The notes under the pieces were generated by a model, which was not told the origin of the DNA, searched no databases, and worked only from the letters and a program-made list of their open reading frames with translations. From the IMG/VR virus record IMGVR_UViG_3300050821_001608, positions 1 through 22,283 of that record: a stretch of DNA of 22,283 bases. One strand, written 5' to 3'. Origin of the DNA: a virus. The position numbers and the translations under genes were made by a program. Position 1 is the first letter of the stretch. Every line of letters begins with the position of its first letter. Shown piece by piece: positions 4,671 to 22,283 of the stretch.

Positions 4671-5548
4671 AGGAAGCTCGCGGCGGTGTTCACGAGATTG
4701 GCGGTCGAGTTGACCAAGGTCCGCGCCGTCGTCGCCGCGGCGAGCGCGCCCTGGACGGTCGCGGTCACCGGCTGGAGGGTCGACCGGCTTCCGGTCCCAT
4801 ACCTGCCATAGAAGCCGGCGAGACCGCGGACGCTGTTGAATATCCGGCTGGCGTCATTGACCGCGCTCATCGCGATCCCGGTGAACTGACCGACCGAAGC
4901 GGTCGCCGCGTGCGCGACGCTGGCGACGCTCGCCAGGGCGGACCCTAGGTCGGAGGCCGACGCGATGTTGAGTTGAGCGGCGGCGGCGACGACGGTCTGC
5001 GCGGTCGCGGTCGTGGTCGCCGGATATTTGACGTCCCCGGCGACGATAAAAGAGAACTGAAGCTCGACGACGCGACCGCGCTCGCGCCGGTCGGCGCACT
5101 GGAACTCCAGCAGCACGCATTGAATGCTCCCGAGCGTCGGATGCACGAGCGTGCCGGCGCCGGATTGCTCGCAGGCCCGAAGCATGGCGTCGCGCTGCTG
5201 ATAGACGTCATCGCCGACAAGAAACGCCTGGATCGAGAACCGTCTCGGCAGCTTGCCCAAGTCCTCGGCCCAGGCGTCGTCTCGATAGGGGTATTCGTGG
5301 ATGGCGACGCGCCGGCCTGCGGCGGTCATGCCGGCATCGAGCACGAAGCCGACGCCGCGCCACGACCCGGGTTGAAGCTGCTGGAACCACGCGCCGTCCG
5401 CCCAGGACGCGCCCGAGCTATCCGGTATCTGCGATCCGCCGAAGCTCTGGCCGATCCGCGCGACGTCGCTCACGACGCTGCCGGTGGTCTGCACGAGCCG
5501 GTTGACGCCGGAGATCGCGCCGCTGATCGGCCCGAGGAAGCCGCTCAT
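4667..5548 (-). CDS. DNA-circularisation protein N-terminal domain (Mu gp43 N-terminal part)
   Basis: A protein of 293 residues. The domain named DNA_circ_N is unmistakable between about 60 and 170: SWRGV (62-66), GRRVAIHEYPYRDDAWAEDL (78-97), FLVGDDVYQQRDAMLRACE (109-127), GAGTLVHPTLGSIQC (130-144) and VELQFSFIV. In contractile-tailed phages this protein is encoded just after the tape measure and is a baseplate/tail-tip component; the DNA-circularisation name is historical. Residues 170-293 are Ala/Ser/Thr/Val-rich low-complexity sequence, likely helical linker, and the reading frame stops at the point where the next gene begins. The start overlaps the tape-measure stop (ATGA). Confidence 0.88.
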   Translation of the reverse strand: MSGFLGPISGAISGVNRLVQTTGSVVSDVARIGQSFGGSQIPDSSGASWADGAWFQQLQPGSWRGVGFVLDAGMTAAGRRVAIHEYPYRDDAWAEDLGKLPRRFSIQAFLVGDDVYQQRDAMLRACEQSGAGTLVHPTLGSIQCVLLEFQCADRRERGRVVELQFSFIVAGDVKYPATTTATAQTVVAAAAQLNIASASDLGSALASVASVAHAATASVGQFTGIAMSAVNDASRIFNSVRGLAGFYGRYGTGSRSTLQPVTATVQGALAAATTARTLVNSTANLVNTAASFL

Positions 5549-7590
5549 ATGCTCGCCATGTCCTGATGCTCGACGCGGACGGGCGCGACGTTGACCGATC
5601 CCGATCCGGTCGCGGTGACCGCGCTATTCGGCGGCGGGTTCTTGTGCGTGATCGAGACATCGACCGCGCCGTTGACCGGCGCAGCCTGCCCGACCTGGAC
5701 AGGCGGCGCGGTGGCAACAGGTGGTGCGGCTGCAACAGGGGGAGCCTTGGCGCTGGCGACCTGCTGCGCGTAGTCGATACGGACGCCGGCATTGCTGACG
5801 GCTGGGCGTTCATACTCACGCTCGACCAGGGCGGCTGCCTGACCTGATGACTTGGTGGTGCGCAGTGCCGCCATCATGCCGGCATACTGTGGCGACCGAA
5901 GCTCCTGGCGCAGAAAGCCGTAATTCGCCTCGTCGCTCTTGGGGTCCAGGTTGTTCTGCTTGGCGTATGCCTCGAATGCATCGCGCCGTGGTCCGGTCCA
6001 CTGCGCCCAGCCGAAGCCGCCGCGCCCGCCGCCGATTGGTGCCTTCTCCTGGACGGCTTGCAGACCAGACTCCGCTTGTAGGTTGCCGACCAAGCCGGAT
6101 GCCTGATCCGGCGTCAGGTTCAGATCGGCGGCGAGCTTGTCGCGGATGGCTGCGCCCCGCTCCACCTTGGCTTGCGGTAGGTTCATGGGTCCTGGCGCTG
6201 CCTGCTGCTGGATCGCCTCGGGGCCTTTCCATAGCCGCTCCAGCCCCTTCTCGATCCAGCCGCCGCCGCCATGCGGACGGCCCTGCTTTTCCAACATCTG
6301 GTCGTATGTGAGCGTCTCGCCGGTAGTCGGATTGCGGAAGGTCGGCATCCCGAACGCGCCGCCCGACTGCTGTTCGTAGCCCATGCCCTTCGCTTGGTCC
6401 TCGATCTCCTTCTGTCCCGCCTTGTTGCGTTCATAGGTGGTGATAATGGCGAGCGCGGCGGTGATCGGGAGAAGCGCCGCGGCCAGCGGACCAAGCGCGG
6501 CGACGACGGTCCCGATATTGGCGACGATCCCGACCGCCCACTTGACGGCGAACGCCAGGGCGATGTCCTCGGTGACATCCTTGATCGTGTCGAGGTGGTT
6601 CAATACCCATTGCAGGCTATCGAGTAGCTTGCCGATGCCCTGCTCGACCTTCGACCAGTCAACGCCTTCCAGCCACGCGGCGAATTTCTGCGAGATGCGA
6701 TCGACGGCGGCGACGATCTCAGGCGTATGCTTTTCCACGAAGTCGGCGAAGTGCTGGAGCAGCGGGCCGAAGTCGCGCGCGACCACGACGGATATCTGCT
6801 GGCCGAGCCGATCGAACGCAACGGCGAGCCGACCTTGTGCCTCGGTGAACCGTTGCAGGCTTTGCTTCTGTTCGTCGGTGAGGTTCTTGTATCGGCTGAC
6901 GTCGCTGAACCATTGCCCGAAGCTCTGGCTGCTCTGGCGGAACGTCTCGACCAGCTTATCGCCCGAGGCGCCGAGCAATTCGTTAGCGGCGCGCGCGCGG
7001 TCGAGCGGGTCCGGCATCGCGGCGATTTTCTGGATCAGCTCCGGCATGACATCGGCGGTCGCGCGTATGTGGCCGGTCGCGTCGCGCGCGTTGATGCCGA
7101 GCTTGTTGAACCACTGGAGCGCCGCCGCCGCGTTGCCGCTGCCGACGTTGATATTGCCAAGGGTGTTGTGCAGCCCCTTTAGGCCCTCGGTCATATCCTC
7201 TGTGCTGCCGCCCGCGAGCCGCGTCGCGTCCTCGAACTGCTGGAGCTGCTGCGTCGTCATGCCGATGTTGTCGGCGTTTTGCACGAGCGTGTGCGACCAC
7301 GCGGCGTATTGCGATACCAGCTTGACCATGCCGGCGATCGACGCGGCGCCGGTTATGGCGCCCATGACCGGCACGATCGCGGTCAACGTCCGGAGCACGC
7401 TGCCCGCCGCCTTGGCGATCCAGTCGAAGCCGGTCGCAACCTTGCGCAGACCGGACACGTCAACGAACTTCGATACCTGCCGCGATAGGCGATCGAGCGG
7501 CGCGCGCATCTGCGTCATGCGCCGGTTGATCGCGTCGATCTGCTTGGTCGCGTTATCGACGACGGTATAGGTGACGGAATAACCGGCCAT
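5545..7590 (-). CDS. tape measure protein with tail-lysozyme domain
   Basis: A protein of 681 residues that sets tail length and is threaded through the tube. Its ATG shares a base with the TAA of the chaperone frame (TAATG). N-terminal region 1-60 has heptad-like hydrophobic spacing. Residues about 62-92 and 343-386 are hydrophobic; the second (VKWAVGIVANIGTVVAALGP onward) could be one or two membrane helices. Residues about 488-605 match the phage tail lysozyme domain: LTPDQASGLVGNLQAESGLQ (492-511, E507 the likely catalytic acid), GGFGWAQWTGPRRDAFEAYA (524-543), EANYGFLRQEL. The last 75 residues are Pro/Ala/Val-rich. By the known rule of about 1.5 angstrom per residue the tail would be near 100 nm. 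Confidence 0.93.
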   Translation of the reverse strand: MAGYSVTYTVVDNATKQIDAINRRMTQMRAPLDRLSRQVSKFVDVSGLRKVATGFDWIAKAAGSVLRTLTAIVPVMGAITGAASIAGMVKLVSQYAAWSHTLVQNADNIGMTTQQLQQFEDATRLAGGSTEDMTEGLKGLHNTLGNINVGSGNAAAALQWFNKLGINARDATGHIRATADVMPELIQKIAAMPDPLDRARAANELLGASGDKLVETFRQSSQSFGQWFSDVSRYKNLTDEQKQSLQRFTEAQGRLAVAFDRLGQQISVVVARDFGPLLQHFADFVEKHTPEIVAAVDRISQKFAAWLEGVDWSKVEQGIGKLLDSLQWVLNHLDTIKDVTEDIALAFAVKWAVGIVANIGTVVAALGPLAAALLPITAALAIITTYERNKAGQKEIEDQAKGMGYEQQSGGAFGMPTFRNPTTGETLTYDQMLEKQGRPHGGGGWIEKGLERLWKGPEAIQQQAAPGPMNLPQAKVERGAAIRDKLAADLNLTPDQASGLVGNLQAESGLQAVQEKAPIGGGRGGFGWAQWTGPRRDAFEAYAKQNNLDPKSDEANYGFLRQELRSPQYAGMMAALRTTKSSGQAAALVEREYERPAVSNAGVRIDYAQQVASAKAPPVAAAPPVATAPPVQVGQAAPVNGAVDVSITHKNPPPNSAVTATGSGSVNVAPVRVEHQDMASI

Positions 7591-11947: not shown

Positions 11948-12580
11948 TCATCCCGCGAAGGTCCAGAGACGATACGGGTCGAGAAGCCGATAGAAAGCCG
12001 CCGGCATCTCTGCCGGAACGTCGCCGCGGTTCTCATAGTAGTGCGCCGTGCCGATCAGGATCGCCGTCCGGATCGGCATGGGGACCGCGGACGGGTCCGC
12101 GTCGTCATAGCCGGCGGTGTAGTCGATCAGCATCGACTGTTGCGGTATGCGCGGCAGCAGTTGCGGCTTGACCGCGACATAGCCCGGATCGACCGCAAGG
12201 TTCAGGTCGTAATCCTCGGGATCGGCTAGCTGCATATCGCCGAGCGGCCCCCAGGTGATCTGCTCGACCGACTGGCACGGCGCGCGCGGTAGCTCGATCG
12301 GTCGCTTTGCCAAGGGCGGCCAGTTCAAGGGAAACACGATCAAGCTCTGCGGCACGAGCGGCGTCGCGGTCGGCGGCGGCGCCCAGGTGATGGCGAATTG
12401 CAGCTTTTGGGTGAACAGCGCGCGGTTTAGATAGGCTTCGGCCTCAAGCCGCGCGTTCTGTATATACATCTCCACCAGATCGTCGTCATAGTCGGAGTCG
12501 ATCCGGCAGTGCCGGCGCGCGAGATCGACCGGCACCGGCTCGGTCGCGGGCGCTTCGAGGACGTGCAAGCCGCCATACAC
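11948..12580 (-). CDS. head-tail connector protein (HK97 gp6-like)
   Basis: A protein of 210 residues starting at GTG (12580), with AGGAAG 9 bases upstream. The N-terminal helices match the gp6/QLRG connector family: PVPVDLARRHCRIDSDYDDD (15-34), LVEMYIQNARLEAEAYLNRA (35-54). The middle has the usual beta-hairpin part (KRPIELPRAPCQSVEQITWG, about 91-110) and the C-terminus IRTAILIGTAHYYENRGDVP (about 169-188) followed by PAAFYRLLDPYRLW. It forms the ring under the portal. Compared with gp6 of HK97 (about 108 residues) it is longer, as often in this family. Confidence 0.87.
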   Translation of the reverse strand: MYGGLHVLEAPATEPVPVDLARRHCRIDSDYDDDLVEMYIQNARLEAEAYLNRALFTQKLQFAITWAPPPTATPLVPQSLIVFPLNWPPLAKRPIELPRAPCQSVEQITWGPLGDMQLADPEDYDLNLAVDPGYVAVKPQLLPRIPQQSMLIDYTAGYDDADPSAVPMPIRTAILIGTAHYYENRGDVPAEMPAAFYRLLDPYRLWTFAG

Positions 12581-12586
12581 GGCGGG

Positions 12587-12799
12587 TTACTTCCTGACGA
12601 CGCCGCTCGGTTGCCGCGGCGCCGGATCCTCGGTCCCGGCGAGCTTCGGGACCATGATATGCAACGGCTGCGCGAGCCGCTTCGCGGCAAGCTCCTGCGC
12701 CGCCGCCATTGGCACGGCGATCAGCTCGCCCGCCGTGTAGTGCGAAAAGCGTCGCATGGTCCGCATCTGAACCAGCGTGCCGGCGACTTCGCCGCTCAT
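12587..12799 (-). CDS. small protein of unknown function with AGE motif
   Basis: A protein of 70 residues not assigned to a named family. A near-perfect ribosome site (AGGAGG) overlaps the stop region of the Ig-like gene, 9 bases before the ATG, so it is very probably translated. Residues 17-46 (RFSHYTAGELIAVPMAAAQE, then LAAKRLAQPL) align without gaps to residues 18-47 of the neighbouring Ig-like protein (HFASYNAGESAAFTADEAAR, then LAEQGVTGEA). Short proteins with this YNAGE-like segment are often seen in phage head clusters. A structural role is inferred from position only. Confidence 0.7.
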   Translation of the reverse strand: MSGEVAGTLVQMRTMRRFSHYTAGELIAVPMAAAQELAAKRLAQPLHIMVPKLAGTEDPAPRQPSGVVRK

Positions 12800-12812
12800 T
12801 TGGTCGGTCCTC

Positions 12813-13223
12813 CTATGTTACGACAACGCCATTCGACGGTGGCGCTGTGGTCGAGCCGTTCGCGTTCGTCGCCGTTACGACGCAGGTCGCGGTAAGCCCG
12901 ACGGCGGCGGGGGTTACGTCAACGGTCGCGGAATCGGCGCCGACGTTCGCGCCGTCAAGCTGCCACTGATAGGCGTAAGCGGTCGGCTCGCCGCTCCACT
13001 CCCCCATCGTGCAAGTGAGCGTTGCGCCCACCTGCTCGACATAAGGCACGGCGACAACCGCAGGCGGCGCGGTCGGTGGAGGGGCTTCGCCGGTCACGCC
13101 TTGCTCGGCGAGCCGCGCCGCTTCGTCCGCTGTGAAGGCGGCGGACTCGCCGGCATTGTAGCTCGCGAAGTGCTTGGAAAACGTGACCACCACATCGCGT
13201 TGCGGAATTCCCTCCACCGACAT
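12813..13223 (-). CDS. Ig-like domain protein, candidate capsid decoration
   Basis: A protein of 136 residues with GGGAG 8 bases before the ATG. N-terminal residues 1-47 carry the HFASYNAGE segment shared with the next small gene. After a Pro-rich linker (APPPTAPPAV, 47-56) comes one Ig-like domain: GATLTCTMGEWSG (66-78), AYQWQLDGANVGADSATVDV (84-103), GLTATCVVTATNANG (109-123), SNGVVV. C71 and C114 could pair and W87 would pack the core, as in the common bacterial Ig-like pattern. It is encoded immediately after the major capsid gene, the usual place for decoration proteins; Ig-like domains on phage capsids are known to bind glycans weakly. Confidence 0.82.
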   Translation of the reverse strand: MSVEGIPQRDVVVTFSKHFASYNAGESAAFTADEAARLAEQGVTGEAPPPTAPPAVVAVPYVEQVGATLTCTMGEWSGEPTAYAYQWQLDGANVGADSATVDVTPAAVGLTATCVVTATNANGSTTAPPSNGVVVT

Positions 13224-13248
13224 TATGCGTCTCCCAGGTTTGTTAGAA

Positions 13249-14796
13249 TTACGGAGGATCGGTCAGCGTCGGCGGCGGGTTCGCGCCGGTCGCGACGGCT
13301 GGCCGGATCGCGGTTGCCTGCGACCACGTTGGGTTGAGCGGTTGCGTCGAGTAAGGCGCCCCAGGCGCGCCGGGAACACCGGAGAAGCCCCAATCCTGCG
13401 TGAGCAACACGACAAGCGATTGAAGGTGTCGCATGTTGCAATCGTGCTCGGCGATCACACGGAACAGCGATTGATCGCGCTGGAACGATGAGACCATTGA
13501 CGTGCCGTCATTGTAGGCTGCGACGTCGGACGCATCGACGACGACATTGTACGTGTCCGCGATGACGAAGTCGGCCATATCGACAAAGTAAATCTCCGAC
13601 GCCTTGGTGAATGTCGTCATCACGAGGTTGGTCGGTATCTGCTGCGTCGTGCGGACCGGGTAGCCTTCCCACATGCCGCGCTCGATCTCATCCTTGAAGT
13701 AGAAACCGCCGACCTGATCGCGAGCGAGCGCGATAAAGCGCACGAGCGTCGGCGACATGATCCACGTCGGTCGGATCATGCGGGACATACCGTTTTGCAA
13801 GGCGAGGATCGCCGCCGACGACGCGGCGAGGATCGCGGTCAACTGATCGCCCGCTGCCGGCGTCGCCGGCATGGCGGCGACCGTTATCAGGTTCGCCGGC
13901 AACACGAGATGGCGCATTCCGATCGGCCCCTTGTCGGTGCCGTCGCCGCGTAGGAATGCCAAGTCCTCGCGCCGCGCGATCGTCTGCACGAGATCGTCGC
14001 GCACGATCTCCTCGACGCCGATCGGCGAGCGGCGGATCAGGTCATTGCTAACCGGAACCATCGCGGTCAATTTCTTGGCCACGAAGTTGACGTCATCGAA
14101 CCGCTCTTGACTGATCGCGATGTCGTCCAGTTCGTTCTGGTAGCCGGCGGTTGCGCCACCAGCGAGACGCGGGATGGTCAAGTTGCCCATCGGCATCCCG
14201 ACTTCCATCGGGTTCGCGCCGCGCACGGCGGTCGAGGCGCGGAGAAGCTCGATCAGGTCCGCCATGAAGTCCTGCGGGATCAACGCGCCGCCTTCGCCGG
14301 TTATGCCCGCGTTGAGCGCGCGGGCGACCACATCATCGCCGAAGCGATTGGAGATAAACTCCGCAGCCTTCTCGATCGAGACGTGGTGGAAGCGCGCGTG
14401 CAGGAGACCGAGCACATAGCGCGACGCCTTAATGCCGCGCTTTTCCTTTAGGCCAGCGTCGGGGTCGCGCTTGGCGCGCGCCGGTTGCGTGGCCGCGCCG
14501 CCGCCGACGCGGAAGCCCGCGCTATGAACGCCGCGCAGAGCGGCCTCGCCGTCGGGATCATCTTCGGTATTGGTCGCGTCCTGTGCGCCCTCCGCTGCGG
14601 CTTGCATGGCGGCGGCGACGCGCTGGAGCCGCTGGTCGATCGCGGCGAGCGCGGCGGACAGTTCATCGAACGTGGTGGACTGTTCGTCGTCGATCGGCTT
14701 GTCGTCGGTGTCCTCTTTGACGATCGCGGTCATCTTCGCGACGATTTCGGAACGCCGACGCTTTAGCTCGCGGTGCTTCTCTGAGAGTGTTGCCAT
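13249..14796 (-). CDS. major capsid protein, HK97 fold
   Basis: A protein of 515 residues. Residues 1-75 form a charged coiled-coil region (EKHRELKRRRSEIVAKMTAI) that acts as the built-in scaffold and would be removed by the protease encoded upstream, probably somewhere in 90-125. The HK97 core starts near 125: GITGEGGALIPQDFMADLIE (164-183), NLTIPRLAGGATAGYQNELD (205-224, E-loop region), KKLTAMVPVSNDLIRRSP, REDLAFLRGDGTDKGPIGMR (276-295), MSRMIRPTWIMSP, and the C-terminal AYNDGTSMVSSFQRDQSLFR, RVIAEHDC. Residues 470-515 form a Pro/Gly/Ala/Thr-rich tail not usual for HK97 gp5, which is shorter (385 residues). Start at 14796 has GAGG upstream. Confidence 0.93.
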   Translation of the reverse strand: MATLSEKHRELKRRRSEIVAKMTAIVKEDTDDKPIDDEQSTTFDELSAALAAIDQRLQRVAAAMQAAAEGAQDATNTEDDPDGEAALRGVHSAGFRVGGGAATQPARAKRDPDAGLKEKRGIKASRYVLGLLHARFHHVSIEKAAEFISNRFGDDVVARALNAGITGEGGALIPQDFMADLIELLRASTAVRGANPMEVGMPMGNLTIPRLAGGATAGYQNELDDIAISQERFDDVNFVAKKLTAMVPVSNDLIRRSPIGVEEIVRDDLVQTIARREDLAFLRGDGTDKGPIGMRHLVLPANLITVAAMPATPAAGDQLTAILAASSAAILALQNGMSRMIRPTWIMSPTLVRFIALARDQVGGFYFKDEIERGMWEGYPVRTTQQIPTNLVMTTFTKASEIYFVDMADFVIADTYNVVVDASDVAAYNDGTSMVSSFQRDQSLFRVIAEHDCNMRHLQSLVVLLTQDWGFSGVPGAPGAPYSTQPLNPTWSQATAIRPAVATGANPPPTLTDPP

Positions 14797-14834
14797 AACC
14801 TGTGTCCTCTATGTGCGGCGCGACATCGCGCGCG

Positions 14835-15521
14835 CTATTCGGTTGCTTGTGCCAGTTGGAGCGCGCGTCGGCGGCGTGCTCGTGCTCTTGTTAATTCTTG
14901 ATTGAAGGCTGTCACTTCCTCGCCGGTTACCGGCGGGGTGTCGGACGCGATAGCCGTTCCCTCGCCCGGTCCGGGCGCTTCGATCAGCGCCTCTGGATTG
15001 GCTGGAACGGTGACAACGGATAGCTCGACAAGCTCCTGTTCCTCGAAGTCGATACCGGGGAACCAGTCGTCGGCGCCGCGCGCTTGGTCGCGTGTGTAGT
15101 CCCACTTGATCGGTCGGAAGCCGACGCTGGTCGCGGCGATAAAGCCGCCGCGCGCGAGCCGATAAACCGACTCGGCGAACTGACCGCCTTCCGGCGTATC
15201 GAGCGGGATAAACTCGACCGACGCTTTCAACGCGCCATCCTCGATGCTGACATTGAACGCGCGACCGATCGGCAGGCGCGAAGCGTCGTGGCCCCACAAC
15301 ACGACCGGATTGCGGGCGAAGTTCTTGAGGTCCCAACCGGCAAGCGCGATGCGGTCCTGCTCGCGGTCAACGTCATCGGTCGAGATGGTAAAGCGGAGCA
15401 CGCGCGCGTCGCCGAGCTGCTCGGCTGGCGCGATGATCTGCTTGCGGAGACCGATCGCCGCGCGGGTGACGTTGCGGCCCCGGTTATACGCCTTGAACTG
15501 CGTGGCACTGACGATCTGCAT
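14835..15521 (-). CDS. prohead protease (HK97 gp4-like, U35 family)
   Basis: A protein of 228 residues whose ATG shares a base with the TGA of the portal gene (TGATG). Protease features: RFTISTDDVDREQDRIALAG (43-62), WGHDASRLPIGRA (76-88) with the likely catalytic H78, GGFIAATSVGFRP (125-137) with the likely nucleophile S132, and EEQELVELSVVTVPANPEAL (160-179). It cleaves the N-terminal delta domain of the capsid protein, encoded 38 bases further on. The C-terminal 50 residues are Glu/Pro- then Arg-rich and may be self-processed, as in HK97 (inference). Confidence 0.92.
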   Translation of the reverse strand: MQIVSATQFKAYNRGRNVTRAAIGLRKQIIAPAEQLGDARVLRFTISTDDVDREQDRIALAGWDLKNFARNPVVLWGHDASRLPIGRAFNVSIEDGALKASVEFIPLDTPEGGQFAESVYRLARGGFIAATSVGFRPIKWDYTRDQARGADDWFPGIDFEEQELVELSVVTVPANPEALIEAPGPGEGTAIASDTPPVTGEEVTAFNQELTRARARRRRALQLAQATE

Positions 15522-16873
15522 CAGCTAACCCCTCCCGGCTCGGGCTTCGGCGCGGCGGCAGTCGGCGCGTTACTCGCCTCGGACGGCGCGGCTGCGGTCG
15601 GCGGTTGATCGGTCGGCAGAGCGGTGTTGAGCGGCACGCGGTATTCGTCGCCGTGGCCGTCGTCGATCGGATCGAGGTTCTCGCGGGCGCGCACTTCATT
15701 GCGCGACATCCAGCCGTTGAGCGTGCCGATCTGATACGCCTGATAGCGCGTTAGGAGATCGCCGCGCGTCATGTCGTCGAAGTCGAATTTGCATTCGAGC
15801 GTCAGGCGTTCGTCGTCGAACAGGAGATGGTGGTCGAACAGTTGCTCGATCGAGCGCGCAACCGGCTTTAGCGCGCTATCGACGTATTGCTGATTTTGCT
15901 GCTCGATGTTGTTCAGCGTCGCCTTGTCAAGCTCGCCGAGCCGATGCGGCGGCACGCCATAGAGCCGGCAGATATCGACCACCTGAAAGCGGCGCGTTTC
16001 TAAGAACTGCGCTTCCTCGTTGGTGATCGCGATCTTTTCGTATTTCATGCCTTCCTCGAGGACCGCCGCCTTGTGCGCGTTCTGGACACCCGCGTGCGTC
16101 TCGCGCCAGGAATTCGCGATCCGATCCCCCGCTTCCTTGGACAGCTTGCCGGGGTGGCTGATAACGCCACCGATCTGCCCGCCCTGGCGGAACAGGATGC
16201 CGCCATGCTGCTGCGTCGCGAGCGCGAGACCGATCACGTCCTGCGCGACGGCGATCGGCGAGACGCCGACATAGCCATCCATCGAGATATTCTTGATGTG
16301 GATCATGTCGTCGGGCGGCACGAGCAGGCCGAAGCCGAGCCGGCGGGAGTTGATCCGATACCAAAGCTCGCCGTCGTCGGTCAGCATGATCGAGCAGCGA
16401 TCCGGCGCGATCGGGACAAGCTCGATCGGGTTCGCATCCTTGTCGCGCTCGACGACGATAAATGCGTTGCCGCGCAGGCAGAGCGACGTGACCGCGTAGC
16501 CGATAAATTCGAACCATGTCTGCCAGCGGTTCGGACGCCTGAACAGCTTGTTGAGCGGATGGCGCGTGTCGCGCCGGTAGCCGCCCCCGCCGAGACGACG
16601 GCGGACGAACGGCGTCAGCATGGCGATATCCTGCGAGACCGCGCGAATGCATGAATAGACCGCAGCGGATTGCAGGGCGGTGAACGGGGTAACGGGAACG
16701 CCGGTATTCGACGCATAGCCGCCGAGCGCGGCGTAAAGCATCGGCTGCGGCCACCCCAACCCGCCAAGGGTCGAAGTAACCGCAGCGTCAGCCTTCGTCT
16801 CGGTCGCGGACGGCGCGGCGGACTGTTGAGACGATCCCAACAGCCATTGCCCGAGCCGCTCGCGGAAGGTCAT
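15521..16873 (-). CDS. portal protein (HK97 gp3-like)
   Basis: A protein of 450 residues that forms the DNA gate at one capsid vertex. Family signature: FTALQSAAVYSCIRAVSQDI (64-83), HPLNKLFRRPNRWQTWFEFI (105-124), TSLCLRGNAFIVVERD (129-144), the segment GFGLLVPPDDMIHIKNISMD, GYVGVSPIAVAQDVIGLALA, then CRLYGVPPHRLGELDKATLN and the C-terminal crown with Ala/Pro-rich low complexity. The ATG lies 2 bases after the stop of the proline-rich gene, with no clear ribosome site of its own, so translation is probably coupled. It is directly upstream of the protease and capsid genes as in HK97. Confidence 0.95.
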   Translation of the reverse strand: MTFRERLGQWLLGSSQQSAAPSATETKADAAVTSTLGGLGWPQPMLYAALGGYASNTGVPVTPFTALQSAAVYSCIRAVSQDIAMLTPFVRRRLGGGGYRRDTRHPLNKLFRRPNRWQTWFEFIGYAVTSLCLRGNAFIVVERDKDANPIELVPIAPDRCSIMLTDDGELWYRINSRRLGFGLLVPPDDMIHIKNISMDGYVGVSPIAVAQDVIGLALATQQHGGILFRQGGQIGGVISHPGKLSKEAGDRIANSWRETHAGVQNAHKAAVLEEGMKYEKIAITNEEAQFLETRRFQVVDICRLYGVPPHRLGELDKATLNNIEQQNQQYVDSALKPVARSIEQLFDHHLLFDDERLTLECKFDFDDMTRGDLLTRYQAYQIGTLNGWMSRNEVRARENLDPIDDGHGDEYRVPLNTALPTDQPPTAAAPSEASNAPTAAAPKPEPGGVS

Positions 16874-16875
16874 CG

Positions 16876-17457
16876 TCAGGCCGGCTTCGGCGCCGGGGTC
16901 GGCGCGATCGGCTGCGTCGGACGGGCCGGCGCAGGCGGTAGCCCCTGATCCGGATGTGCCGGCGCAGGCGGTAGCCCGTGATCCGGATGGCCCGTCGTCG
17001 GCGGCAGCGGATAACCGACCGACAGGCTAGGATCGACGACGGTATAGCCTACCACCTGTAGACCGCCCGCCGCCGAGACCGCGACGATCGCGACAAGGAA
17101 CTTCTGCGACGGCAGACCATGATCCGGACGCGGTGGTGCGCCGGGCAATCCCTGGTCAGGGCGCGGTGGTGCGCCGGGCAATCCCTGGTCAGGGCGTGGT
17201 GGCGAGCCGGGCGGGACAATCGGTCCACCGCTTACGACCGGAGGCCAGATCGAGCCGGGTGGCATCGGATAGTCAGGCGGCAGTGGCGTCGGCGGCCAGA
17301 TACCGACCGGAGGCGGCCATATCCCAGGCGGCGGCGGCGGAAGCTCGATCGGGTGCGTCGGCACGCCTGGGGCGCCGGCGATGGGCGGAAGCGAATTGTC
17401 CGGACCAGCGGGGACCACGAGTATGCTACCGGCGGGAACGGGAAAAGTTGCTGCCAT
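16876..17457 (-). CDS. proline-rich repeat protein of unknown function
   Basis: A protein of 193 residues, with GGAG 8 bases before the ATG. It holds six copies of a PD(Q/H/N)(G/S)LP motif (at 19, 89, 100, 111, 158 and 169) and three (G/S)IWPP motifs (45, 52, 69). Between them is one short hydrophobic beta-like segment, KFLVAIVAVSAAGGLQVVGY (119-138) followed by TVVDPSLSVGYP, that looks like the only folded part. No signal peptide or clear membrane helix. It sits between the large terminase and portal genes, where other phages of this kind carry similarly Pro-rich hypothetical proteins (recollection, not searched). I cannot give a function; a flexible structural or interaction protein fits the composition. 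Confidence 0.75.
   Translation of the reverse strand: MAATFPVPAGSILVVPAGPDNSLPPIAGAPGVPTHPIELPPPPPGIWPPPVGIWPPTPLPPDYPMPPGSIWPPVVSGGPIVPPGSPPRPDQGLPGAPPRPDQGLPGAPPRPDHGLPSQKFLVAIVAVSAAGGLQVVGYTVVDPSLSVGYPLPPTTGHPDHGLPPAPAHPDQGLPPAPARPTQPIAPTPAPKPA
17131..17196 (-). repeat. perfect 33-base tandem duplication in the proline-rich gene
   Basis: Positions 17131-17163 and 17164-17196 are identical base for base, coding two copies of an 11-residue unit (GAPPRPDQGLP register). Partly decayed copies flank both sides, including one with PDHGLP. Perfect identity against decayed neighbours suggests a recent duplication. Confidence 0.92.
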
Positions 17458-17482
17458 TACGGGAACTCCATTGGGGTTGAGG

Positions 17483-17496
17483 GTTTCACTTGAAAC
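17483..17496. other. short palindrome GTTTCA-CT-TGAAAC between large terminase and proline-rich genes
   Basis: A 6-base inverted repeat with a 2-base centre in the 53-base gap (17458-17510) between the large terminase stop and the proline-rich gene start. It could be a protein-binding site, but a single short palindrome can occur by chance and there is no nearby promoter pattern. Confidence 0.3.
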
Positions 17497-17510
17497 GATC
17501 GCGCGCGGCT

Positions 17511-19196
17511 CTAGCCGCCGAGCACGAGTAGCCCCCTGCTTTCGTAAACAGAGGTCGCATCGACGTGCGACATGCTGCGAGCGATCGCCATGATCGTTGC
17601 AACCGCCGCGTCGATCTTGTTCTCGGGTCGCGCCTTGCGCGGATAGACATTGCCGCGCGCGTCATAGTGGCCGACGACATTCGACATGCACCACGCGAGC
17701 GCGCCGTTGCCATCGTGGCGAAGCCGACCGGCGCGGATCGCGGCGTCGAGTTCTTTCGTCGGCTCGCTAAAATTCTGCGTATTGGCGCGGAACTCGACCA
17801 CCGGAACGCCTTCGGCGGCGAGCCGCTGCGCAAGCTGCGTCGATCCCCACGGATCATAGGCGAGCGATTGAACGTCGAAGCGCCGGCAATCCTCGATCAG
17901 ATCGATCTCGATCGCGCCGAAGTCGGTCTCGTTGCCCGGTGTGATCTGAAGCACGCCGTCGCGCGCCCAGGCCGGATAGGACGGATTGCGCGCTTCGGCG
18001 ACCGCCGACTCGTTGAGATAGCACCGGCAGAACACCGTGTAGTGGCCGGCGTCCGGAAACACGAGCGAGACCGCCGCGAGATCGGTCCTGCTCGCAAGGT
18101 CGAGCGCGATATGGCACGGCCTGCCGGCGAAGTCCTCGATCCGAAGCGTCGGATCGGCGCACGCCTGCCAGGAGCGAACCGAGAACAGCGCCTCATCCGC
18201 GCCGACCCATTGGTTCAGGTGCCGGGTCTTGAATACCGACTCCCGCGCCGCATTGTTGCGCGCCTGCTGGGCGATCGAGCGGATCGCGTCAGGCTGGACG
18301 GTCTGGCCCCAGCCGGGGTTGACCTTGCGCCACGTTACTTCGTCCCAGGTGTCGTCGCTCGCGTCGGCGGTATAGATCAACGCGAATAGCCGCTCATCCT
18401 CTTGCACGCCGTCGAGCACGCGCAGCGAGTAATCCCATAGCTGCTTGCCGATCCCCGCCGTGTTGTCGGTCGCCGTCGTAATGCAGATCAGCAATGGCTG
18501 GACGCGCTTACCCATCGCGGTCAACAGGACGTCGTAAACCTGTGCCGTCTTATGGCTGGCGATCTCATCGCAGACCGCGACCGCGACGTTCAAGCCGTCG
18601 AGGGCCTTCGCGTCGGAGGAGATCGGCGCGAAGCGGCTCGCGGTGCGCTCCTGAAAAATCGCGTTGACCATGACGTTCACCGACAACGGCGGACGCTGGA
18701 GACGCGGCGTCCGCCGCACCATGTTCTGCGCCATGTCGAACAGGATGCGCGCCTGATCGCGGGTAACCGCCGCCGCGTAGCCTTCGGCGCCGCCTTCGCG
18801 CTCCATGAACGTGCAGTAGAGCGCAGCCGGCGCGACAATCGTCGTCTTACCGTTGCCGCGCGGGACAGCGACGTACGCCTGCCGGAAGCGTCGCAAGCGG
18901 GTGCCCGGCTCGACGAAGCCGAAGATGTTCGCATAGACGAACCGCTGCCAGTCCATCAACCGGATCGGCTTGTCAGCTTCCGGCCCCTTGATATTCGGTA
19001 GCTGCGAGGCGAACAGCATCGCGCGATTGGCGAGCGCCGGATCGAACTGCCAAGCCGAGTTGCCCGCCTTCGCGTCCGCAAGCTCGCGATTGAACCGCGC
19101 CGCCGCCTTGCGCGCGGTCTCGCAAGCGGTCGCGTCATCGGCGAGCCGGCGAGCGAATTCGATCGCGGAAGTGACGTGGTCGCGGCTAGGCGACAT
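17511..19196 (-). CDS. terminase large subunit (HK97-type)
   Basis: A protein of 561 residues, the packaging motor ATPase and nuclease. The N-terminal ATPase has DWQRFVYANIFGF (82-94), Walker A AVPRGNGKTTIVA (110-122), and Walker B with the catalytic acid VAVAVCDEIASH (204-215, D210 E211). A coupling motif candidate is CITTATDN (238-245). The nuclease half shows the expected acidic residues: D366 in HIALDLASRTDLA, D448 in LAYDPWG, and D529 in KIDAAVATIMAIAR. The ATG overlaps the small terminase stop by 11 bases. The motifs indicate the Terminase_1 class, used by HK97 and relatives for cohesive-end or related packaging; the end type cannot be read from sequence alone. Confidence 0.95.
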   Translation of the reverse strand: MSPSRDHVTSAIEFARRLADDATACETARKAAARFNRELADAKAGNSAWQFDPALANRAMLFASQLPNIKGPEADKPIRLMDWQRFVYANIFGFVEPGTRLRRFRQAYVAVPRGNGKTTIVAPAALYCTFMEREGGAEGYAAAVTRDQARILFDMAQNMVRRTPRLQRPPLSVNVMVNAIFQERTASRFAPISSDAKALDGLNVAVAVCDEIASHKTAQVYDVLLTAMGKRVQPLLICITTATDNTAGIGKQLWDYSLRVLDGVQEDERLFALIYTADASDDTWDEVTWRKVNPGWGQTVQPDAIRSIAQQARNNAARESVFKTRHLNQWVGADEALFSVRSWQACADPTLRIEDFAGRPCHIALDLASRTDLAAVSLVFPDAGHYTVFCRCYLNESAVAEARNPSYPAWARDGVLQITPGNETDFGAIEIDLIEDCRRFDVQSLAYDPWGSTQLAQRLAAEGVPVVEFRANTQNFSEPTKELDAAIRAGRLRHDGNGALAWCMSNVVGHYDARGNVYPRKARPENKIDAAVATIMAIARSMSHVDATSVYESRGLLVLGG

Positions 19197-19716
19197 CCCG
19201 CGTCAACTCATCCCAGGCATCGACCTCGCCCTCGATCAATCGCGGCCCGCCTTGCGGGATCAACTGGATGCGCGGTCGCGAGGCCGGCGAGAAGCCGAGT
19301 TCACTGCCGCAGCGGAGCATGATGAGCGCGGCATGGTTCATGATCCGGAGATACGGCGAAGCGGTCGGCGAACCATCCTTCGACTTGGTCAACAGCGGCA
19401 TCTGATTGCCGAGATCGAGCCGCGCTTGCGTCATCATCGCCGTGCGGTGGCGGTCCTCCGCTTCGACCCAGGTCACCAGCACCGAGCGGTCGAGGGCCTT
19501 GAGCAGACCGCGCGGCGCGTAGCGCATGACATAGGTCCAGCCCTCTTTCTGGCTCGGCGTGAGGAAGTCGGGCGGCACGACGTCGAGATCGGTCTCGGGC
19601 TGCGGTTCGAACGGTCGCGCGTTGCGATCGGCGCGGTCGGTGCCGTGGAGCTTGTGCAACGCGGTCGGCTTGCGCGGACGTCCGCCCTTGTTGCGACCGT
19701 GCCGGGGCTTTTTCAT
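19186..19716 (-). CDS. terminase small subunit, P27 family
   Basis: A protein of 176 residues. The basic N-terminus NKGGRPRKPTALHKLHGTDR (9-28) and C-terminal GSELGFSPASRPRIQL (137-152) are hallmarks of the P27-type small terminase, with LTPSQKEGWTYVMRYAPRGL and LDRSVLVTWVEAEDRHRTA between them. It recognises the packaging site and directs the large subunit. The ATG overlaps the stop of the CmoA-like methyltransferase gene (ATGA), so it is probably co-translated with it. The C-terminal acidic region (EGEVDAWDELTRDVA) would contact the large subunit (inference). Confidence 0.92.
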   Translation of the reverse strand: MKKPRHGRNKGGRPRKPTALHKLHGTDRADRNARPFEPQPETDLDVVPPDFLTPSQKEGWTYVMRYAPRGLLKALDRSVLVTWVEAEDRHRTAMMTQARLDLGNQMPLLTKSKDGSPTASPYLRIMNHAALIMLRCGSELGFSPASRPRIQLIPQGGPRLIEGEVDAWDELTRDVA

Positions 19717-20384
19717 GTCTCGACCAGCCAGCCGGCGAATTCGCCGAAGCGGAAAAACTCGACCGCGCGTCCCGGCAGGAGCGTGCGCGCGATCGGACGC
19801 TGCACGCCGCTGAGTGACAATTCCTTGGCGACGATCTCGCCGGGTTCGACGCCAGCGGCGAGCTTACCGGCGAGCGCAAGGCGCCAGAGCACCGTGCCGG
19901 GATAGCCGCGCTCGGCTTCGCACTTGTCGAACACGATCAGCGCGCCGCCAGGACGTGCAGCAGACACCAGGTGCTCGACCAGCGGGCCGCGCTCGACCGG
20001 CGCGACGAACATCAACGTCAGGAACGCAACCGCGACATCGAACGGCTGGAACGCGACGCACTCGGCGCGCTCGATCAGCAATTCGCTGTCAGGCGGGCCG
20101 GTATAGATCGCCGCCATCTCGGGCGACGGCTCGACCGCGATCAAGTGCGCGCCGCGCGCTGCCAAGGTCGGTGCGAGCGCACGACCGATGTTCCCGGTTG
20201 CTGCGCCGAGATCGTAAACGAGACCGCCTTGCGGGATGTAATGCCGCGCAACGTGCGCGACGGCGCCGGTCGCGATCTCATACCAGGGGAGCTGCTCGCG
20301 GACATGCCGCTCGAAGCCGTTCGCCACGGCTTGGTCCTGAAACGTCCAGTTGCGCGGGATGTCGAAGGCGTCGGCGGCATCCAT
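19713..20384 (-). CDS. class I SAM-dependent methyltransferase, CmoA-like
   Basis: A protein of 223 residues from the start MDAADAFDIPRNWTFQD at 20384; an in-frame ATG at 20453 would add 23 residues of doubtful relevance. The SAM-binding motif I is VYDLGAATGNIGRAL (56-70), followed by the acidic residue in LIAVEPSPEM (E85). The N-terminal FERHVREQLPWYEIATGAVA (24-43) and the C-terminal RAVEFFRFGEFAGWLVE resemble CmoA, the enzyme that makes carboxy-SAM for tRNA U34 modification (similarity from memory). The substrate cannot be assigned: it may act on tRNA, on carboxy-SAM, or on a small molecule. It overlaps the small terminase gene and probably leads the late operon. No clear ribosome site precedes 20384, which leaves the start uncertain. 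Confidence 0.78.
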   Translation of the reverse strand: MDAADAFDIPRNWTFQDQAVANGFERHVREQLPWYEIATGAVAHVARHYIPQGGLVYDLGAATGNIGRALAPTLAARGAHLIAVEPSPEMAAIYTGPPDSELLIERAECVAFQPFDVAVAFLTLMFVAPVERGPLVEHLVSAARPGGALIVFDKCEAERGYPGTVLWRLALAGKLAAGVEPGEIVAKELSLSGVQRPIARTLLPGRAVEFFRFGEFAGWLVET

Positions 20385-20506
20385 TAGGTGAATTCTGCAG
20401 CCCTTGGCTGCGAATGCCCTGGATAATCCGCCGACGCCAGTCGATAGGACCATTGCCGGCCCGGCAAGGCCGGCTTCGTCAACCTCAACCTCGAAGGAAT
20501 TCGATC
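20385..20506. promoter_or_regulatory. divergent intergenic region with hairpin
   Basis: This 122-base stretch separates the minus-strand late operon from the plus-strand island and must hold control signals for at least one of them. A 7-base inverted repeat, GCCGGCC at 20455-20461 and GGCCGGC at 20468-20474 with a 6-base loop, is its clearest structure; no T run follows on either strand close enough for a strong terminator. A direct repeat of GAGGTT lies on the minus strand at about 20482-20493. GATAAT at 20422-20427 (plus) resembles a -10 box but has no -35 partner at normal spacing. I could not place a promoter with confidence. Confidence 0.4.
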
Positions 20507-21358
20507 ATGCCTGCATCTAACAAGAAAGTCACCAAGCCGTCTGCGAAGGTCGCGGCGGTTCGCAAGGCGATGGACAAGAACATCGCGAAAAACGTCGCCA
20601 AGCGCGCCGCCAAGGTCCGCGCGGCGAATGCCGCCGCCGATGGGCGGGAGGCGAATGCCGCCAAGGCGCCGAAGGTTACCGCCGAGATGAAAGCCGCTCT
20701 GACGCCGAAGGGCTTCGGCTCGCTGATCGTCGGCGGCAACGCCAATCCGGCGAAGCCGACCAAGCCGGCGAAGGCCGGCAAGGCGACCGCCGCGCTGACG
20801 CCGATCGAGCGGCAAGCGATCGAAGGCATTCTCGCGAGCGACTACATGGATGGCATGACCGGCAACGATGCGGTCGGTCATCGGGTCTGGACGTGGAGCG
20901 CGAATCCGTTCGCGTCGAAGCCGACCTTTAGCGGCGCCGCAAGCTCGCTGGTCAAAAAGGGCTTTGCCGCGATCGACGGCGCCGGCAAGGATGCCTGCAT
21001 CCAGATTACGCGCGCCGGCATGGATGCGTTCGAAGCGACCGCCGCCGCCAAGCCGGTTGCGAAGGTCGCCAAGGCCGGCAAGGCGTCCGCCGCTACTACC
21101 AAGCCGGCGAAAGCCGCGAAGCCTGCCAAGGCCAGCGCCAAGCCGGCGACGGACGGCGTCAAGGCGCCGACCGGCGCGAAGGCGACGATTATCGCCATGA
21201 TCGAGCGGAAGGACGGCGCGAGCGCCGCCGAAGTCTGCAAGAAGCTCGGTTGGGTCAAGGCCGGCGCGACGATCGGACGCGCGATCAAGCTCGCGCCGTT
21301 CAAGGTCCGCAAGGAGCGCGATGCCGACGGCGCTCTCCGCTACTACCGGGAGGGCTGA
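20507..21358 (+). CDS. histone H1-like basic protein with two probable winged-helix segments (DUF3489-like C-terminus)
   Basis: A protein of 283 residues on the strand opposite to the phage operon, with AAGGA 8 bases before the ATG at 20507; a long open frame further upstream is Arg-rich shadow sequence. Residues 1-60 and two linkers (80-96, 181-222) are Lys/Ala/Pro-rich with PAKAGKA and PAKAAKPAKA units, like histone H1 tails and some bacterial nucleoid proteins. Residues 97-178 (LTPIERQAIEGILASDYMDG ... SSLVKKGFAAIDGAGKDACI ... ITRAGMDAFEA) look like a winged helix. Residues 223-281 (GAKATIIAMIERKDGASAAE, VCKKLGWVKAGATIGRAIK, RDADGALRYYR) resemble DUF3489. DNA binding or compaction is the likely role; target unknown. 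Confidence 0.75.
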   Translation: MPASNKKVTKPSAKVAAVRKAMDKNIAKNVAKRAAKVRAANAAADGREANAAKAPKVTAEMKAALTPKGFGSLIVGGNANPAKPTKPAKAGKATAALTPIERQAIEGILASDYMDGMTGNDAVGHRVWTWSANPFASKPTFSGAASSLVKKGFAAIDGAGKDACIQITRAGMDAFEATAAAKPVAKVAKAGKASAATTKPAKAAKPAKASAKPATDGVKAPTGAKATIIAMIERKDGASAAEVCKKLGWVKAGATIGRAIKLAPFKVRKERDADGALRYYREG

Positions 21359-21361
21359 CCG

Positions 21362-21460
21362 ATGCTGAAAGCTCTTGTCGTCATTCTCCTGACGCCGCTC
21401 GTGCTTTGTCTCGGCGTCTACGGCTGCACCATGGCGCATGTCGCGGTGCTGACGCATTAG
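21362..21460 (+). CDS. 32-residue membrane peptide
   Basis: Starts 3 bases after the stop of the H1-like gene, with GGGAGGG about 8 bases before the ATG, so it looks like a translated second gene of the island. The sequence MLKALVVILLTPLVLCLGVY forms one hydrophobic helix after a single Lys, followed by GCTMAHVAVLTH. The cysteine after VYG is near a lipobox place but the pattern is not a proper lipobox. Function unknown; a small membrane or entry-exclusion-type peptide is possible. It ends 5 bases before the convergent stop of the cytosine methyltransferase gene. Confidence 0.55.
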   Translation: MLKALVVILLTPLVLCLGVYGCTMAHVAVLTH

Positions 21461-21465
21461 GCCGG

Positions 21466-22283
21466 TCAAGCGGCTACTCTCGGAAGGGGCGCGGAGCGAT
21501 CCGCGCCCTTTCTGCGTGCGGGGTCGAGGACGCGATCTCGGATCGTCGCGGCGATTGCCGCCATCATGACCGGCGGGACCGCGCGACCGAGCCGCTCCCA
21601 CTGTTCGGCATAGGTGCCGAGCAGCACGAAGTCATCGGGAAACGCGCATATCCGGCGAAGCTCGGCGATCGAGAATTTCCGGCACTCGGTCGGATGCGCG
21701 ACGCTCGCCGCGTGCGCCTTCCGGCCCTCTGCGGTGATCGTCGGCGACGGCGCCGCGAGAGACGCGCGCACTAGCTGGAAATACCGACCGGAGGTCTCGC
21801 CCTGGCCGAGCTTGTCAAGCTCGCGACCGACCGCAAAGCGCTGCATGTCGGCTTCCGGCTCGACCATCAGCGTCATCTCGCTCCGGGTCCGTCGCCGGCC
21901 ATGCGTGAGAACGGTCGGCGCCGGATCGTTGATCGAGCGCGCGCCGTCGAAGGTGCCGACCTTGACGCGGACGGCGCGCGACGCCTGGACGGTCGCGGCG
22001 GGCTGGCTGCTAGGCGCCATAGCGTGACCGTTGAAGCCGTTAGCGCACTCGACCGCGCCGATCCACGGCAGCGCGTCGCGGACGCTGTAGCGGTAGCTCC
22101 GTGGCGCCGGAAAGGCCGGGTCGGTCGCAAGGTCGAGCCGCGTCCCAACAAAGATCAGCCGTTGCCGCGCCTGCGGAACGCCGAGCCATTGCGCGTCGAG
22201 CAGTTGCGCGCGGACGCGGTAGCCCGCCGCCTTCAATGCCGCGAGGATGTCGAGGAAGTAGCCCTTGCCGGCGCCCTTGACCA
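21466..22283 (-). CDS. DNA cytosine-C5 methyltransferase, C-terminal part (cut by window edge)
   Basis: The gene enters from the right edge; 271 residues are visible. The open frame runs through to the edge (VKGAGKGYFLDILAALKAAG before AQLLDA), so the TTG at 22236 is not the start. Conserved C5-methyltransferase parts: motif VIII LGVPQARQRLIFVG, motif IX RKFSIAELRRICAFPDDFVL, motif X ERLGRAVPPVMMAAIAATI (GRAVP in place of the usual GNAVP). The target-recognition region has three P-x-T-(V/I) segments (QPAATVQAS, DPAPTVLTHG, PSPTITAEG). Motifs I-VI, including the catalytic PC, lie outside the window, so activity cannot be judged. It probably protects phage DNA against host restriction (inference). 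Confidence 0.87.
   Translation of the reverse strand, partial: VKGAGKGYFLDILAALKAAGYRVRAQLLDAQWLGVPQARQRLIFVGTRLDLATDPAFPAPRSYRYSVRDALPWIGAVECANGFNGHAMAPSSQPAATVQASRAVRVKVGTFDGARSINDPAPTVLTHGRRRTRSEMTLMVEPEADMQRFAVGRELDKLGQGETSGRYFQLVRASLAAPSPTITAEGRKAHAASVAHPTECRKFSIAELRRICAFPDDFVLLGTYAEQWERLGRAVPPVMMAAIAATIRDRVLDPARRKGADRSAPLPRVAA
21487..21511 (+). terminator. hairpin terminator of the plus-strand island
   Basis: A 9-base stem, GGGCGCGGA (21487-21495) with TCCGCGCCC (21500-21508), closed by a GCGA tetraloop (GNRA type) and followed by TTTCT on the plus strand. It lies 27 bases after the stop of the membrane peptide, where a terminator of that transcript is expected. It also falls inside the last codons of the minus-strand methyltransferase gene. 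On the minus strand no T run follows, so it should act mainly on plus-strand transcription. Confidence 0.7.

Follow-up and report, generated by a model that had tools for sequence, protein, structure and literature searches.

An antisense, probably moron-type island with a predicted winged-helix, probably DNA-binding product, among the late genes of a virus

Linker histone H1 is built from a winged helix plus a basic extension. Rok-type xenogeneic silencers, as presented in an excerpt of PMC7074111, also join a winged helix to a basic or oligomerising extension, and silencers of this kind are carried by mobile elements. Morons are defined in PMC4378225, where the passage concerned treats a differing base composition as usual but not defining, and STMMW_20121 is an example of an antisense prophage accessory locus (excerpt of PMC7067206). 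Regarding phage proteins of the DUF3489 type, a known case comes from Bordetella phage CN2 (KY000219, 8744-9601, L265), with 285 amino acids and annotated as a hypothetical protein; its domain is preceded by a charged linker of Lys, Ala and Pro, just as a Lys/Ala arm precedes that of the protein described here. A term search of the main text of the CN2 paper (PMC8471281) gave no mention of DUF3489 or histones, and a passage elsewhere in the literature links DUF3489 to a SCOP superfamily that it leaves unnamed. In the literature on H1-like and histone-like phage proteins, taken at outline level, no description of the present protein was recognised.

The window analysed here is a whole virus record of 22,283 bases, in which the minus strand holds all the late genes identified by Pfam, namely terminase, portal, protease, capsid, tail sheath, tail lysozyme and Mu-type baseplate proteins. 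Against them, on the plus strand and with ribosome sites, stand the two genes that the original prediction had singled out. Gene A (20507..21358, ATG at 20507 and TGA at 21356-21358) encodes 283 amino acids and has homologues in relatives, while gene B (21362..21460, ATG at 21362 and TAG at 21458-21460), starting 3 nt after gene A, encodes a hydrophobic peptide of 32 amino acids. Their Shine-Dalgarno-like sites, read directly, are AAGGA at 20494-20498 for gene A and GGGAGGG at 21348-21354 for gene B. The right flank is dcm, a C-5 cytosine methylase gene cut at the window end (21466..22281, minus strand), as had been expected; on the left, the island is not directly next to the packaging genes, but to a SAM methyltransferase gene (19713..20384, minus strand), assigned by family matches to phrog_4752 and CmoA-like, after which come the small (TerS, 19186..19716) and large (TerL, 17511..19196) terminase subunits, both on the minus strand and identified by Pfam. 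Elsewhere in the window, a Mu gp45-type baseplate protein carries a long collagen-like repeat (1706-2911), and a proline-rich protein with repeated PGAPPRPDQGL-type units has no Pfam match (16876-17457).

Gene A is a true coding sequence, since it has a coding-type GC content at the third codon position, dN below dS and homologues at the same site. Its GC by codon position is 0.61/0.56/0.86, resembling the neighbour genes, and dN was lower than dS for the C-terminal domain in all 12 pairs of relatives compared, with ratios from 0.08 to 0.77; most pairs show a clear constraint, and only the pair of the window with L009 a weak one. Of the 70 viral loci retrieved via the methyltransferase, 16 have this domain at the equivalent position and in the equivalent orientation. 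Long antisense ORFs are frequent in this GC-rich window, and a minus-strand ORF (20384-21601) covers the whole of gene A, as would be expected if the plus-strand ORFs were chance open frames; however, this explanation is scarcely credible, being refuted for gene A by those homologues, by the selection and codon pattern and by a confidently predicted fold. Lysine makes up 13.8% of the gene A protein, compared with 0.7-5.1% of the 13 other window proteins examined, whereas the overall GC of gene A (0.674) falls within the range of the 13 other window genes (0.624-0.714), so its composition is not foreign.

Comparison of relatives revealed the empty site of the island. The 16 island loci reduce to 14 distinct ones at the junction, in which dcm is separated from the methyltransferase gene by an antisense gene of the DUF3489 type; the window is included in these counts through L006, a contig of the same kind that is 100% identical over the genes compared. 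By contrast, the two genes overlap or lie within 150 bases of each other at 45 distinct junctions of relatives. A third class, of nine junctions, has a gap of about 1.36 kb between them. In one of these (L017), the gap holds a sense-strand gene at 5207-6577 that reads as asparagine-synthase-like from its sequence; open frames of that type also occur at the dcm-methyltransferase junction of L003 (4501-6252) and L068, scattered in the tree, and the L068 junction carries both inserts, the island and the asparagine-synthase-like one. A tree built on 95 methyltransferase rows groups all 14 island rows in one clade (support 99/89) with L028, whose contig begins inside the methyltransferase gene and is uninformative on the island, and the nearest row outside this clade is L116, from a Caulobacterales MAG, in which the two genes overlap by 22 bases. 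Read most simply, this pattern probably reflects a single insertion event that was then inherited vertically. Judging by L116 and rows like it, the probable host is an alphaproteobacterium. An integrase is encoded in five of the nine island-bearing records, and none was found in the window record, which is a fragment.

The island was also predicted to have its own terminator. A terminator-like hairpin does exist, formed by a stem with a GCGA loop followed by TTTCT (21483..21512, plus strand), but it lies beyond the interval originally assigned to the island, where the extended 3' end of dcm has its last codons. Its folding gives a z of -3.3, but the T-run is weak, and a simple terminator scan of the window did not list it. 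When a hairpin of at least eight GC pairs at the dcm end, in the direction of the island, was sought among relatives, it was present at 11 of the 14 island junctions, one of the 45 adjacent ones and none of the nine with the 1.36-kb insert, compared to shuffled rates of 3.6%, 0.3% and 0%, respectively. Of the remaining island loci, L016 has none, while in L019 and L021 a hairpin with seven T after it lies shortly beyond the stretch tested. The reverse of the hairpin encodes a C-terminal tail of Dcm (window 21466-21512), such as KGADRSAP in close island loci, that is missing from the 15 adjacent loci read; the island insertion thus seems to have lengthened the neighbouring Dcm protein. Since this tail is encoded by the reverse of the hairpin, the conservation of the latter may partly be protein conservation, but the hairpin, as compared across junctions, still accompanies the island. 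The moron layout proposed at first was sustained by both the empty sites and the terminator, the latter as judged from sequence.

Regarding the gene A protein, a structure model built from a 19-row alignment comprises a basic helix (residues 13-53), a middle winged helix (residues 99-181, in a domain of about 97-179, 20795..21043), a Lys/Ala arm (residues 182-222) and a C-terminal DUF3489-like winged helix (residues 224-281, in a domain of 224-283, 21176..21355), the last being the conserved core of the island. The helix and both winged helices are mostly predicted with pLDDT >90, and the C domain modelled alone gave 90, whereas the arms score low and are predicted to be disordered. These boundaries agree closely with the two winged helices that had been guessed at 97-178 and 223-281, and both predicted domains show the winged-helix topology, helix-(strand)-helix-helix-wing, with winged helices as their structure matches. 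The best of these are MarR family proteins for the middle domain (Z up to 8.9) and DriD (8tp8) for the C domain (Z 8.2, 2.0 A across 60 residues); the architecture predicted here, of three helices plus a wing, is also that of these MarR/ArsR-type and DriD proteins, but middling Z values and low identities point to fold likeness only. Foldseek returned no gene A match in the PDB at E 0.001 or better, but it did match two DUF3489 proteins of viruses, with E-values of 1.7e-6 and 1.3e-5. Positions 9-65 of the 68 of the PF11994 (DUF3489) profile match the C domain, with a score of 23.5 bits that is under the Pfam gathering cut-off of 29.5; of 42 records searched, three exceed this cut-off, namely the ones belonging to L015, L019 and L068.

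Searches by sequence found little else. Among solved structures, the C domain had weak matches alone, ArgR/HipB among them and none better than E 0.12, and the middle domain had none; a scan of bacterial genomes for close relatives of the C domain turned up 481 pattern stretches, none of which was confirmed as a relative. Gene A had no match in a plasmid search, and in phage records the middle domain alone was matched, in one record, while a search with the L074 relative gave no match, nor did a nucleotide search with 12001-22283; Rfam gave no match either. The middle domain is a stand-alone small ORF in other phage contigs, which makes gene A of the window a fusion, and among the distinct island junctions only the gene of the window has both winged helices in tandem. 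The middle region of the CN2 protein was considered as a homologue of this domain and rejected for lack of a sequence match, even though Foldseek gave an alignment of 212 columns, at a low TM. The CN2 gene lies on the strand of its neighbours, unlike the antisense gene A.

As first suggested, the arms are rich in lysine and alanine (19% Lys and 30% Ala, with a net charge of +25), and this composition recurs in all 13 island proteins examined, whose arms have 9-24% Lys and 18-34% Ala and whose pI values are 9.7-11.3. From the predicted fold and the charge, the gene A product likely binds DNA, in a design that recalls Rok, although gene A would have two winged helices, the likeness to the excerpted description of Rok (PMC7074111) is by design only and silencing is putative. 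A late-made, H1-like protein condensing DNA for packaging or protection during infection would also suit the Lys/Ala arms and winged helices, as well as the proximity of the methylase and packaging genes. Such a role is nonetheless improbable, as the gene is oriented against the late operon and missing in relatives that share dcm and the methyltransferase gene, and the arm varies in length among island proteins, from 34 residues upward.

The 122-bp divergent intergenic region (20385..20506) holds three conserved elements in addition to the Shine-Dalgarno site of gene A. Aligned over nine sequences, these are a dyad TGCAGC-5-GCTGCG, with TCGCAG...CTGCGA in relatives (20396..20412); the element ATGCCCTGG, or TTGCCCTGG in relatives, which is a possible -35 box or operator (20414..20422, plus strand); and a GC hairpin or dyad that lies in the probable leader of gene A and whose changes among relatives are paired (20455..20474, plus strand). 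A promoter scan found no sigma-70-like site for the island. Pairing over both helices was kept in 95.6% of cells versus 23-52% in slid controls, and the GC hairpin alone was paired in 98.5% of cells, both sides having changed in three of its pairs. Two of the five pairing measures did not rise above the shuffles of control (a), 302 of 500 of which reached them. The alignment supports a maintained inverted repeat, acting as RNA or operator, among sequences that are related and few.

These elements bring up a serious rival, in which gene A would be the phage's own local regulator, binding the dyads of the 122-bp region and repressing its own promoter as well as a late promoter created by the insertion. 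The divergent arrangement with the methyltransferase-terminase operon, the conserved elements shared between them, the two-sided changes of the GC dyad and the retention of the gene throughout the clade all agree with such a regulator. On the other hand, a leader hairpin and a promoter would yield the same elements, and the recognition helix is conserved even where dyad 1 is absent. The motif, furthermore, had no convincing recurrent site elsewhere in the eight records searched. Local regulation is regarded as possible, with the odds against it. A wider role of the intergenic motif, as a phage-wide operator, was rejected: when viral contigs were scanned for exact 15-base matches, 111 stretches came up, most of them probably due to chance, because among the fetched loci the C domain occurs only in known island contigs. 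Within the window, moreover, the motif at three mismatches was no commoner than expected by chance.

The case for gene B is weaker than for gene A, and on its own it could still be spurious. It had no family match in profile searches, including PF14373, and the gene A and gene B pair, which was to be looked for in other prophages, is not conserved, as the second slot holds different genes or none in the relatives. No ORF was found in this slot at five of the 14 distinct island junctions and at least one of 25 or more amino acids at the other nine, seven of which have a strongly hydrophobic stretch. In L075, one of these seven, the slot is filled by a protein matching Imm_superinfect (PF14373, E 4e-17) and phrog_1039, immunity to superinfection, and a DUF3846 gene follows it in that island (2034-2396). 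L007 and L068 may have a lipoprotein-like product in common, by our reading of their likeness and lipobox. A known exclusion family appears in just one of the nine occupied slots. The idea of a two-part prophage cassette, where a constant H1-like silencer would be coupled to an interchangeable cell-surface exclusion gene for protecting the lysogen from rival phages, is doubtful.

The preferred reading, to which we give a probability of roughly 0.55, is that of a moron-type cassette, inserted once in reverse, kept thereafter, with a DNA-binding product and a swappable surface slot. With the moron and prophage accessory loci of PMC4378225 and PMC7067206, as excerpted, the island shares the insertion between adjoining genes, its own terminator and the orientation opposite to lytic genes; however, two usual moron features fit poorly, since its composition does not differ from that of the neighbours and the gene occurs throughout the clade instead of sporadically, and its promoter and lysogenic expression are putative. 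Retention throughout the clade suits a function in the phage cycle equally with one in the lysogen. According to this moron-type scenario, a gene with its own terminator would have entered the dcm/methyltransferase junction in an ancestor of a lineage of temperate phages whose tails are Mu-like, where it was retained. Its conserved product would be a DNA-binding protein, with the DUF3489-like winged helix held by the Lys/Ala-rich basic arm, to which the gene of the window would have added a second winged helix by fusion of the stand-alone phage protein. We infer that the protein is most likely made from the prophage, as a small architectural or silencing regulator, whose winged helices would touch DNA at two places while the arms grip it non-specifically, like Rok or linker histones, possibly compacting it. 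The downstream slot would supply exchangeable, mostly membrane or lipoprotein-like products, which probably act at the cell surface, superinfection exclusion being one example.

The DUF3489 family, whose function is unknown, occurs in 11 of 96 genomes of one bacterial class, and a single insertion with clear empty sites offers a testable setting for it. Gain of the island seems to have given the neighbouring methylase its tail and to have created a place that exchangeable membrane genes can occupy. Were the two-part cassette true, phage-borne silencers would have a new family in the DUF3489-like proteins. Gene A itself would add a new architecture among phage-borne DNA-organising proteins.
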